Assembly (NCBI RefSeq): GCF_022489035.1
Contig: NZ_JAKVTV010000001.1
Location: forward strand, 1,302,001 to 1,366,000
Direction of reading: 5' to 3'
Origin: Christiangramia lutea
Lineage (GTDB): Bacteria; Bacteroidota; Bacteroidia; Flavobacteriales; Flavobacteriaceae
DNA: 64,000 nucleotides
The first letter of the stretch is position 1. Each line of letters begins with the position of its first letter. The notes below the pieces were generated by a model, which worked only from the letters and a program-made list of their open reading frames with translations, was not told where the DNA came from and searched no databases. Shown piece by piece: positions 18,547-37,320 of this stretch. A program made the translations under genes and the position numbers.

Positions 18547-18605
18547 GTCATGCTGAACTAGTTTCAGCATCTCTCGAGAGCCCCTGAAACAAGTTCAGGG
18601 TGACG
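18547..18605 (-). repeat. double-hairpin repeat, type A, copy 3
   Basis: ATGCTGAACTAGTTTCAGCA forms the first hairpin and CCCTGAAACAAGTTCAGGG the second, framed by GTCA and TGACG. The order of the hairpins is the reverse of the 2462 copy. It lies between DUF3127 and its terminator. Confidence 0.8.
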
Positions 18606-25201: not shown

Positions 25202-25227
25202 GTCATGCTGAGCGCAGTCGAAGCATG
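25202..25227 (+). repeat. GAGCGCAGTCGA hairpin repeat (type C), copy 1
   Basis: CATGCT pairs with AGCATG around GAGCGCAGTCGA. The same loop with stem ACGCC/GGCGT occurs inside leuS at 28318. Confidence 0.7.
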
Positions 25228-25240
25228 CATGAGTTTTAAT

Positions 25241-25263
25241 TGCACTTCGACAAGCTCAGTGCA
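25241..25263 (+). repeat. ACTTCGACA(A/G)GCTCAGT hairpin repeat, copy 2
   Basis: TGCACT pairs with AGTGCA around TCGACAAGCTC. It is the partner of the repeat at 2805. Confidence 0.7.
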
Positions 25264-25273
25264 ACACCAATAT

Positions 25274-25334
25274 GTCATGTTGAACTCGTTTCAGCATTTC
25301 AACCTGGAGACCCTGAAATAAATTCAGGGTGACG
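25274..25334 (-). repeat. double-hairpin repeat, type A, copy 4
   Basis: GTCATGTTGAACTCGTTTCAGCATT is a decayed first hairpin; CCCTGAAATAAATTCAGGG is a perfect second hairpin, ended by TGACG. Confidence 0.75.
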
Positions 25335-26530: not shown

Positions 26531-26591
26531 CGTCAAGCTGAACTTGTTTCAGCTTCTCATTTTTAGACCCTGAAACAAGTTCAGGGTGACG
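26531..26591 (-). repeat. double-hairpin repeat, type A, copy 6 (leuS leader)
   Basis: AAGCTGAACTTGTTTCAGCTT forms the first hairpin and CCCTGAAACAAGTTCAGGG the second, between CGTC and GACG. The stem AAGCTGAA/TTCAGCTT differs from ATGCTGAA/TTCAGCAT by paired changes. Confidence 0.8.
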
Positions 26592-26614: not shown

Positions 26615-29524
26615 ATGAGTTACCACTTTAATAAGATCGAAGAGAAATGGCAGAAATACTGGGCAGAGAACCAAACTTTCAAAGCCAAGAACGATTCTGA
26701 AAAACCTAAATATTATGTTTTAGACATGTTTCCTTACCCTTCAGGTGCAGGATTGCATGTGGGACACCCGCTGGGATATATCGCCAGTGATATCTATGCC
26801 CGTTACAAAAGACATAAAGGGTTTAACGTGTTGCATCCCCAGGGTTATGATAGTTTCGGACTTCCGGCAGAACAATACGCCATTCAAACCGGTCAGCATC
26901 CCGCGGTAACTACTGAAAATAATATCGCTCGTTATCGCGAGCAACTGGATAAGATCGGATTTTCTTTCGACTGGAGTCGTGAGGTGAGAACCAGCGAGCC
27001 AGATTATTATAAATGGACGCAATGGATCTTTATCCAGCTTTTTGAAAGCTGGTATGATCAGGAGGCTGATAAGTCTCGTCCTATCTCCGAGCTGGAAGAG
27101 ATTTTTGCTTCAGAAGGTAACTCTAGAGTGAATGCTGCCTGCGACGATGATGTGGAAGAATTTTCGGCTGAAGACTGGAAGGCTTATTCACACGATGAAA
27201 AGGATCAGGTCTTATTAAAATATAGGCTGACTTACCTGGCGGAAGCCGAGGTGAACTGGTGTCCGCAATTAGGAACCGTGCTGGCCAACGATGAGATCGT
27301 GAACGGAGTTTCTGAACGTGGCGGATATCCTGTGGTTAGGAAGAAAATGACCCAATGGAGCATGAGAATTTCGGCTTTTGCTGAAAGATTGCTTCAAGGC
27401 TTGAATAATATTGATTGGACAGAAAGTTTAAAGGAAAGTCAGCGAAACTGGATCGGGAAATCGGTTGGAGCAATGGTTCATTTCAATCTTTATGGAGAGA
27501 CCCTGAAACAAGTTCAGGGTGATGCTAGTTCAGCATCTCAACCAAAGATTTCTGTTTTTACAACCCGACCCGATACGATTTTTGGGGTTAGTTTTATGAC
27601 GCTTGCGCCAGAACATGAACTGGTTCAAAAGATCACTACGGAAGATAGAAAAGAGGAAGTTCAGGCATATATCGAAGCTACGGCAAAGAGAAGTGAACGC
27701 GAACGAATGGCCGATGTTAAGACCATAAGCGGAGTTTTCACCGGAGCCTATGCAGAGCATCCATTTACCAAAGAACCGGTGCCAATCTGGATAGGAGATT
27801 ACGTACTTGCCGGCTACGGAACCGGAGCGGTGATGGCCGTTCCATGTGGTGACCAGCGAGACCATGATTTTGCGAGACATTTTGATCTGCCAATTCCGAA
27901 TATTTTCGAAAATGTGGATGTCTCTGAAGAGGCTTTTGTTGGCAAGGAAGGTACTGTGATCGCTAATTCAGATTTTCTTAGCGGACTTGAATACAAGGAA
28001 GCACTTCAAAAAGTGATCCTGGAACTGGAAAAAACAGGTCAGGGTTACGGAAAAACAAATTACAGGCTTAGAGATGCGGTTTTCAGTCGCCAAAGATATT
28101 GGGGTGAACCATTCCCCGTTTATTATGTGAATGGTCTTCCGAAAATGATAGACTTAGATCATCTTCCTTTAAGACTTCCTGAGGTTGAGAAATATCTTCC
28201 AACTGAAACAGGCGAACCGCCACTTGGTAACGCGACCGACTGGGCCTGGGATACAAAAAATAATAAAGTGGTTTCAAATAAGATGCTGAAACAAGTTCAG
28301 CATGACGAAGATGGAGGTGTCACGCCGAGCGGAGTCGAGGCGTCTGAAGATAACGGAGTATATCCACTGGAGTTGAACACCATGCCGGGATGGGCAGGAA
28401 GCAGCTGGTATCTTTTCAGATATATGGATGCAGGCAATCCAGATCGTTTCGTTTCAGAAGAAGCCCAGCAATACTGGGAAAATGTAGATCTATATATTGG
28501 AGGTAGTGAACATGCGACTGGCCACTTATTATATTCAAGATTCTGGACTAAATTCCTGCACGATCGTGGATGGTTAACTGTGGAAGAACCGTTCAGAAAA
28601 CTGATCAACCAGGGGATGATCCTTGGAACCAGCGCATTTGTTTACAGGCTTGAAGGTGAAAATGTATTTGTTTCTAAGAACCAGATCAAAGGAAATAATG
28701 TTCAGCCAATTCATGCCGATGTTTCCTTGGTGAATGCTTCAGATGAGCTGGATATTGAAGCCTTTAAAAAATGGCGACCTGAATTTGCAGATGCTAAATT
28801 CCTTACCGAAGATGGAAAATACATTGTTGGACGGGAAGTGGAAAAAATGTCCAAATCCAAGTACAACGTGGTGAATCCTGATGAGATCTGTAAAGATTAC
28901 GGGGCAGATACTTTAAGAATGTATGAAATGTTCCTGGGGCCTCTGGATCAGGCGAAACCATGGAATACTGCCGGGATAACCGGTGTACATAATTTCCTTA
29001 AAAAGCTTTGGAAACTATATCATAATGGAGAGGAGTTTTACGTTTCAGATGAAAAAGCTTCAGCAGATTCCTTGAAAAGTCTGCATAAAACCATTAAAAA
29101 GGTGACAGAGGATATTGAGGATTTCAGCTTTAATACTTCGGTTTCTACTTTTATGATCTGCGTAAATGAACTATCCGCTCAAAAATGCGATAGCATAGAA
29201 GTTCTTGAGCCTCTTGCGGTCTTGATTGCTCCTTATGCTCCGCATATCGCGGAGGAACTGTGGGAGAAGTTAGGCAATTCTGAATCTGTAACCACAGCTA
29301 CTTATCCTGTCTACGAAGAAAAGTACCTGGTGGAAAGCACTAAAAATTATCCAGTTTCCTTTAATGGAAAGATGAGGTTTACCAAAGAACTTCCTTTAGA
29401 TATGGGGAAAGATGATATTGAGAAAAATGTGCTTGAAGATGAAAGAACGAAAAATCAGCTTGACGGGTCTACCCCTAAAAAAGTGATCGTTGTTCCGGGT
29501 AAAATTATAAATATCGTAATTTAA
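26615..29524 (+). CDS. leuS: leucine-tRNA ligase with two in-frame repeat insertions
   Basis: This 969-residue class I synthetase has the HIGH-type motif PYPSGAGLHVGHPLGY near residues 40-55, the editing domain with TRPDTIFGVSFMTLAPEH (T-rich region) and PCGDQRDHDFA, and the KMSKSKYN signature near 744. It charges tRNA-Leu in the cytosol. Two stretches are not expected from the family. ETLKQVQGDASSASQ (about 292-307) lies just before the editing domain. MLKQVQHDEDGGVTPSGVEA (about 556-577) lies before PLELNTMPGWAGSSW. Their DNA is identical in design to the intergenic hairpin repeats. All catalytic motifs and the frame are intact, so the enzyme is presumably functional. Confidence 0.96.
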   Translation: MSYHFNKIEEKWQKYWAENQTFKAKNDSEKPKYYVLDMFPYPSGAGLHVGHPLGYIASDIYARYKRHKGFNVLHPQGYDSFGLPAEQYAIQTGQHPAVTTENNIARYREQLDKIGFSFDWSREVRTSEPDYYKWTQWIFIQLFESWYDQEADKSRPISELEEIFASEGNSRVNAACDDDVEEFSAEDWKAYSHDEKDQVLLKYRLTYLAEAEVNWCPQLGTVLANDEIVNGVSERGGYPVVRKKMTQWSMRISAFAERLLQGLNNIDWTESLKESQRNWIGKSVGAMVHFNLYGETLKQVQGDASSASQPKISVFTTRPDTIFGVSFMTLAPEHELVQKITTEDRKEEVQAYIEATAKRSERERMADVKTISGVFTGAYAEHPFTKEPVPIWIGDYVLAGYGTGAVMAVPCGDQRDHDFARHFDLPIPNIFENVDVSEEAFVGKEGTVIANSDFLSGLEYKEALQKVILELEKTGQGYGKTNYRLRDAVFSRQRYWGEPFPVYYVNGLPKMIDLDHLPLRLPEVEKYLPTETGEPPLGNATDWAWDTKNNKVVSNKMLKQVQHDEDGGVTPSGVEASEDNGVYPLELNTMPGWAGSSWYLFRYMDAGNPDRFVSEEAQQYWENVDLYIGGSEHATGHLLYSRFWTKFLHDRGWLTVEEPFRKLINQGMILGTSAFVYRLEGENVFVSKNQIKGNNVQPIHADVSLVNASDELDIEAFKKWRPEFADAKFLTEDGKYIVGREVEKMSKSKYNVVNPDEICKDYGADTLRMYEMFLGPLDQAKPWNTAGITGVHNFLKKLWKLYHNGEEFYVSDEKASADSLKSLHKTIKKVTEDIEDFSFNTSVSTFMICVNELSAQKCDSIEVLEPLAVLIAPYAPHIAEELWEKLGNSESVTTATYPVYEEKYLVESTKNYPVSFNGKMRFTKELPLDMGKDDIEKNVLEDERTKNQLDGSTPKKVIVVPGKIINIVI
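27498..27540 (+). repeat. hairpin repeat inside the leuS coding sequence, copy 7
   Basis: AGACCCTGAAACAAGTTCAG followed by GGTGATGCTAGTTCAGCATCTCA forms one full hairpin (CCCTGAA/TTCAGGG) and a shortened second one (GATGCT/AGCATC). It is translated in frame as LKQVQGDASSAS. Confidence 0.85.
28281..28343 (+). repeat. two hairpin repeats inside the leuS coding sequence, copy 8
   Basis: ATGCTGAAACAAGTTCAGCA (28282 onward) is the type A half-element. It is followed at 28318-28343 by ACGCC-GAGCGGAGTCGA-GGCGT, the type C hairpin with a compensated stem. Both are in frame, encoding MLKQVQHDE and VTPSGVEAS. Confidence 0.85.
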
Positions 29525-37260: not shown

Positions 37261-37320
37261 TATCCTGAACTAGTTTCAGGATCTTTTTTCTTGAGAAGCT
37301 GAAACAAGTTCAGCTTGACG
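37261..37320 (+). repeat. double-hairpin repeat, type A, copy 9
   Basis: ATCCTGAACTAGTTTCAGGAT (first hairpin) and AAGCTGAAACAAGTTCAGCTT (second) lie directly after dnaE, ending TGACG. Both stems are perfect with bases unlike those of other copies, so pairing is preserved. Confidence 0.8.

Follow-up and report, generated by a model that had tools for sequence, protein, structure and literature searches.

How does the gene of an essential enzyme come to carry, in frame, the hairpin-forming repeats that otherwise lie between genes? The question is raised by leuS (26615..29524, plus strand) in a 64,000-nucleotide stretch of the Christiangramia lutea genome, hereafter the window. Open reading frame, profile match (NCBIfam leuS_bact, 915.9 bits against a cut-off of 548.4) and the presence of editing domain PF13603 point to an intact leucyl-tRNA synthetase (LeuRS, LeuS) of 969 residues. 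The protein contains PYPSGAGLHVGH, KMSKS and TTRPDT, which we take to be the intact synthetase and editing motifs of LeuRS, and by these motifs it is predicted to be functional. As this is the single, intact leuS match of its genome, open without a stop through both of the stretches in question, a broken or duplicated copy is ruled out; since both stretches are also present in a genome of the same genus whose LeuS is 95% identical (L195), so is a sequencing error.

The first-pass annotation had proposed that the two stretches are built in frame from intergenic hairpin units and add about 13 and 20 residues, one at the edge of the editing domain and the other ahead of the catalytic core. This placement holds: site 1 lies close to where the editing domain starts, and site 2 precedes the catalytic core. 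When LeuS is aligned with that of 80 named relatives, the usual loops comprise 14 (site 1) and 23 (site 2) residues against 27 and 42 in the window, giving inserts of 13 residues, as claimed, and of 19 rather than 20. The short loop is found in 51/80 of these relatives at site 1 and in 69/80 at site 2, so most orthologues compared lack the repeat-matching stretches. Site 1 consists of a first REP palindrome (ACCCTGAAACAAGTTCAGGGT; 27500..27520, plus strand), read within ETLKQVQGD, whose core recurs elsewhere in the genome, and of a second, shortened one (ATGCTAGTTCAGCAT; 27522..27536, plus strand), common to L195 with one change. At site 2, a first REP palindrome (ATGCTGAAACAAGTTCAGCAT; 28283..28303, plus strand), read within KMLKQVQHD, is followed by a second with a GAGCGGAGTCGA core (28320..28345, plus strand), read within VTPSGVEAS. 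The predicted RNA fold is stable at site 1 (z -3.9; 1/200 shuffles equally stable) and less so at site 2 (z only -1.6; 12/200). Alignment with LeuRS chain 1h3n places site 1 between residues 239 and 240 and site 2 within the unaligned stretch 462-493. Both loops are presumably exposed hairpin tips of LeuRS, site 2 being in a former zinc module; the structure model of the window LeuS itself is poor (pLDDT 66.7), too weak to read loop exposure.

The intergenic origin of the units is borne out by identical copies between genes, in the window and in the rest of the genome. With at most one mismatch, TGAAANNARTTCA occurs 21 times in the window against 8.8 expected, a number reached by none of 100 shuffles, and GAGCGNAGTCGA twice against 0.30 (4/100 shuffles). 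Over the whole genome, CTGAAACAAGTTCAG (at most two mismatches, both strands) gives 149 matches against 5 for the reversed pattern, and GAGCGNAGTCGA 10 against 0. Among these copies, none of them assigned to a strand, are an intergenic dimer in the leuS leader (26531..26591), whose right-hand unit matches the first site-1 unit exactly, two pairs of site-type units in opposite orientation found by the TGAAANNARTTCA search (18554..18597 and 37266..37312), and a cluster found with TGAAANNARTTCA and GAGCGNAGTCGA that comprises one GAGCGCAGTCGA unit and two TGAAA-type units (25210..25326). The window also holds an ordinary S16-Flavobacteria ribosomal protein leader (RF03138; 31865-31899, minus strand).

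Units were then placed relative to genes, in the window as well as in 34 regions surrounding genome matches, with at most one mismatch to CTGAAACAAGTTCAG or an exact GAGCGNAGTCGA. The 104 matches correspond to 103 places, and five of them are inside open reading frames of at least 120 residues: leuS accounts for three and L199, close to the ends of putative frames, for two. The remaining places are in no frame of that length, and leuS is the only clear intragenic target found in this genome. A wider search, which considered three other genomes, ruled out that LeuS is the sole gene hit in every genome, as 8/61 GAGCG matches are inside other frames: 7/24 in G175, 1/30 in G125 and 0/7 in G130, where 7 of 19 matches could be placed. 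The seven units of G175 are in six frames, which by eye we take to encode a SerA-like dehydrogenase, a mevalonate diphosphate decarboxylase, an A2M-like protein (hit twice), an isochorismate synthase, an RND pump and an MnmD-like protein; that of G125 is in an acyltransferase linker. Among 50 genomes hand-chosen from the 80, 17 with other inserts being left out, the median number of GAGCGNAGTCGA matches is 45 in the 11 with a GAGCG-type insert vs 9.5 in the 22 uninserted ones. For the ATTGCGAG type, further copies exist in 3/5 carrier genomes, the leuS copy being alone in two at the sensitivity used, and one genome with an uninserted leuS (G162) has 13 such matches.

Whether the lack of stop codons was due to chance or to selection had been left undecided by the first-pass annotation. 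Chance alone is disfavoured, because one frame is preferred where several are open. Three of the six frames are open in the CTGAA unit and five in the GAGCG unit. Yet 15/16 forward GAGCG units in leuS are read in one frame (the L365 and L367 units are in reverse), as are 8/8 GAGCG units in the other genes of G175 and G125, around SAVE, and 5/5 leuS inserts of the ATTGCGAG type. Matches to CTGAAACA[AC]GTTCAG read as EMLKQVQHD-like peptides in 8/8 forward cases and as an HSELVSES-like peptide in the one reverse case, and none of them uses the hydrophobic open frame (VMLNLFQ); these frame counts are not all independent, as L148 = L045, L132 = L040, and the window and L195 share units. Such a frame preference would fit selection on the encoded peptide.

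That both sites are shared hotspots lay beyond what could be seen from the window. In a family sample of one LeuS per genus, 79 genera (72 + five + two extracted; site 1 unscored in 2 and site 2 in 6), a repeat-type insert is found at site 1 or 2 in 15/79 genera, or in 12 when three weaker classes of simple or less certain repeats (L125, L143, L165) are set aside. It is found at either site in 25/80 of the named relatives, which were chosen by similarity and overlap with the genus sample (L040 = L132, L045 = L148, L082 = L167). The motif classes were defined after inspection of the inserts; 12 longer site-1 loops of the genus sample, L116 among them, match none of these classes, and the DUF559 domains of L116 and L159, of a kind described below, were missed by them. 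The carriers differ both in the family of their insert (EMLKQVQHD or HSELVSES, VTSSAVE, VIASEAKQS, VIPTERS, HPEPVEG, GC-rich palindromes) and in its reading phase. L007 and L013 have the insert at site 1 only, decayed in L007, and L005, L006 and L008-L012 have neither. Matches outside leuS at three or more loci are found for 14/77 inserts vs 0/231 control leuS segments, and at least one for 33/77 vs 53/231; the other 44/77 inserts gave none by same-genome matching with short flanks, the database being too small for most inserts.

On a FastTree phylogeny of LeuS core columns, 27 presence/absence changes are counted at site 1 (35 carriers/158), against a mean of 31.9 and a least value of 27 in 200 shuffles, and 12 at site 2 (19 carriers/154), against a mean of 18.1 and a least value of 15. 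Site-2 occupancy thus changes less often than in any shuffle, as would be expected if a few old insertions, instead of many independent ones, had passed from species to species through recombination between leuS alleles. This could also account for a G at position -4 of site 2 in 17/21 LeuS with a longer site 2 vs 0/134 others. Against it, the 150 bases either side of site 2 show no extra likeness among carriers (88 pairs, mean residual -0.05), and repeat families and reading phases differ between them; the spread of a single site-2 haplotype is rejected by this local identity test, and we consider allele recombination in general to be an unlikely main cause.

The two sites are not exclusive, since repeat-like units are found at other leuS positions in L063 and L082, and reverse GAGCG-type units near residue 176 in L365 and near 504 in L367. 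As a control gene we used DnaE, half as long again as leuS and matched in 77/79 genomes. No repeat insert was seen in the 42 DnaE read by eye (the 30 best-scoring and 12 mostly chosen by length), the remaining 35 being judged by match length alone, and the length outliers are non-repeat segments; one control gene does not suffice to make leuS unique. Three further features of these proteins were noted. The usual-length site-1 loop reads QNSEF in L154, L014, L026, L051, L054, L158 and L179. In L154 this loop is encoded by an AT repeat (ATTCAAAATTCAGAATTC), much as though a simple repeat had been written over the default loop. Finally, several relatives have a third variable insertion of up to ~60 residues around LeuS core columns ~644-666, with no repeat visible by eye.

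Match to intergenic repeats in the window genome, sharing of the sites, in-frame reading, absence from most orthologues compared and lability are all directly observed. In Bacteroidia, the two LeuRS loops are on these grounds probably permissive sites at which palindromic repeat DNA lands and turns over. Repeat insertion would be frequent everywhere, and genes would retain only those inserts whose length is divisible by three and which are free of stops, hydrophilic and located in a tolerant loop, all others being purged; sites once occupied might tend to remain so, with their content replaced. In the window, the loops contain two CGTC-type REP pairs; in other genomes they contain other repeat families, or a DUF559 nuclease enclosed by GC-rich palindromes.

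Conservation at silent positions is not predicted by tolerance alone, and the palindromes of the window's genus are more conserved than their coding role requires. Between the window and L195, 434/2907 leuS bases differ, with 1/83 changes in the units vs 433/2824 elsewhere (p 3e-5); at third positions, 1/28 are changed vs 360/941 (p 4e-5). The site-2 spacer has three changes in the same comparison, and the units have decayed in L007 (6/21). The palindromes around the nuclease in L164-L134 behave likewise (2/51 vs 917/3159 changes, p 1e-5), and a non-repeat insert evolves at background rate in L057-L081 (11/57 vs 440/2802, p 0.46), one of two such comparisons at background. Furthermore, four close relatives have three different repeats at one spot of the leuS leader, indicating that intergenic contents are swapped while the in-gene ones stayed.

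These observations raise the possibility that the hairpins have been co-opted as DNA or RNA structures and are kept by nucleotide selection, for example through ribosome pausing between domains, protein binding or mRNA stability. The excess conservation is nevertheless confined to 8/16 repeat pairs (window-L195, window-L013, L029-L040, L030-L072, L133-L183, L164-L134, L164-L175 and L164-L167, p<0.05); it is absent from seven (window-L007, L029-L032, L029-L117, L030-L053, L021-L022, L021-L035 and L020-L183), and in L017-L063 the units change faster, the 16 pairs being hand-chosen and the p values, over all positions, uncorrected for the number of tests. One consensus may have been inserted separately in the members of some pairs, and homogenisation by gene conversion would look alike. 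As, moreover, most leuS compared are without repeats, the hairpin has decayed in L007 and the repeat type is interchangeable, we regard co-option as rather improbable, although it would be compatible with the landing-site explanation.

A second form of insert contains a nuclease. In the family sample, a DUF559 domain (PF04480) is present at site 1 in five LeuS (L134, L161, L164, L175 and L116, decayed in the last), and L061 has flanks like those of this form without the nuclease. Across the class, leuS was matched in 96/99 genomes, and 20 loci chosen for split or long matches were inspected together with the 29 best-scoring ones. DUF559, recognised with a model built partly from the same inserts, occupies, in frame, site 1 of L354-L360 and site 2 of L363-L368, amounting to 13 genomes of 12 other families; 13/96 is a lower bound and not a rate, because of the choice of split or long matches. 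DUF559 is absent from all 29 best-scoring loci; site 2 of one of these, L333, contains a palindrome-like insert. In L362 (G503) and L159 (G112), the LeuS frame is broken around the DUF559 insert, which could be an assembly error or a real split gene. Palindromes with arms of at least 7 bases are found in the 5' flank of 14/17 inserts (up to 171 bases searched) and in the 3' flank of 10/17 (105 bases), and in 10/500 control windows of 105 bases. Outside leuS, a DUF559 nuclease is in frame inside RecG of G125 (L236; recG profile score 714.7 bits vs a cut-off of 659.4), between DEQHRFGVAQRSKLW and MTATPIPRT. The same genome has a DUF559-like nuclease inside an apparent intein, as judged by eye, of a phage-head-like protein (L241).

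The 17 aligned inserts share D, ExDG and then H, which are presumably the catalytic residues; they were picked by a motif requiring D/E and ExD/EG, L116 being excluded as failing it. PDB 3hrl is matched by the DUF559 domain with E 7e-19; the match to 3r3p, an entry named mobile intron protein that we take to be I-Bth0305I, is weak (E 0.0023). In a tree, the in-gene nucleases are apart from four free-standing ones (support 97) and those of the two sites are intermixed, many other supports being low. A plasmid search with DUF559 gave no Bacteroidota among the organism names listed.

Such inserts suggest that the sites could be homing targets, DUF559 cutting leuS at two conserved places so that the element is copied in, and the short GC palindromes being nuclease-less leftovers. 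The intact frames at site 1 in five leuS of the family and seven genomes of other families, and at site 2 in six more, speak for this, as do the resemblance to the 3r3p protein and the case of L368, where site 2 carries the nuclease form and site 1 a nuclease-less form whose 5' end is the same. On the other hand, no DUF559 was found in the window genome, the repeats of which differ from the GC palindromes. The identities of nuclease and LeuS are correlated (r 0.43; 0/999 permutations as high), so that much descent may be vertical, and cleavage is putative. Homing is therefore an explanation that we would not expect to prevail, even if it is compatible with landing in permissive loops; as co-option and homing may be partly true together, the likelihoods given to the different readings do not sum to one. 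A broader proposal is somewhat more plausible, while still tentative: Bacteroidia might carry a non-splicing homing element, in which DUF559 lies between GC-rich palindromes and enters in frame two leuS loops and recG. The nuclease would become a lasting LeuRS domain, the short GC palindrome pairs would be non-autonomous derivatives, and DUF559 would be the mobiliser of this repeat class.

Could the inserts, finally, be kept out of the protein by being skipped by the ribosome or spliced out? Translational bypass elements offer a point of resemblance for hairpin-forming inserts in essential genes. All 81 aligned LeuS nevertheless keep the frame without a stop, with one frame preferred, and the three family nuclease inserts scanned with Pfam show nuclease families only and no splicing domain, for which ~140 residues would leave little room. 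Skipping or splicing is hence most improbable.

Altogether, repeat DNA appears to have landed repeatedly, without splicing, in the gene of one essential enzyme. In relatives of the window genome, the same two spots of leuS have received different palindromic repeats, some of them enclosing a nuclease gene. These inserts provide natural insertion data for LeuRS loops and designate DUF559 as a candidate mover of GC-rich palindromes, and the silent-site conservation of the in-gene hairpins makes the question of REP function directly testable.

Several known systems resemble what is seen here. In inteins and intron-borne homing endonucleases, including the weakly related 3r3p protein, a nuclease gene also lies within a conserved gene; in contrast, the inserts tested here have no splicing part, and the nuclease is a palindrome-bordered extra domain of LeuRS and, once, of RecG. 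As in RAYT-REP systems (REPtrons), the window genome has one Y1 transposase gene with a palindrome on both sides (L085; C1:651467-651817, minus strand), a candidate REPtron of another repeat family. Unlike in REPtrons and GTAG REPs, the flanking CCTCACAGGTTTTGGAAACCTGTGAGG palindrome of this only Y1_Tnp gene found belongs to another family than the leuS units, which leaves a Y1 transposase unsupported as their mover. Rickettsia palindromic elements (as described in PMC3733652) share with the leuS inserts the in-frame position of palindromes inside genes of likely functional proteins, but differ in sequence and hosts, leuS being the only clear target found in the window genome. The first-pass annotation knew of palindromes inside genes from cases like Rickettsia; this was too narrow, as that paper describes intragenic REPs in several species, in genes including those of tRNA synthetases, as well as CGTC repeats in Bacteroidetes.

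The CGTC-tagged REPs are a close likeness to the window repeats: both are short palindromes with a CGTC tag, often in dimers, and such REPs occur in Bacteroidetes among others; Di Nocera et al. 2013 (PMC3733652) found no dedicated transposase for them. These REPs have a stem of 8-9 bp, a loop of 4-5 and, at one end, a CGTC-like tag. In the window, an 8 bp stem and a 5-base loop are found in the first unit at either site; the tag is GACG after 28303 at site 2 and, at site 1, after 27520, GATG in the window and GACG in L195. The many dispersed genome copies are also a shared trait. CGTC-tagged REPs form predominantly head-to-head dimers; the window units form opposite pairs, whose tags point towards each other at site 2 and away from each other in the leader. 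In the search results and opening parts of abstracts that we surveyed, we met no mention of repeats or of DUF559 inserted into leuS. Intragenic REPs are already known; for the leuS hotspot and the DUF559 form, this search gave no prior report. REP inserts at about one site are described in recB of two Xanthomonas (PMC3733652). The inserts of Di Nocera et al. otherwise lie in other genes of one functional class and at different sites (PMC3733652), whereas leuS is entered at the same two sites across the family and the class, by several palindrome families.
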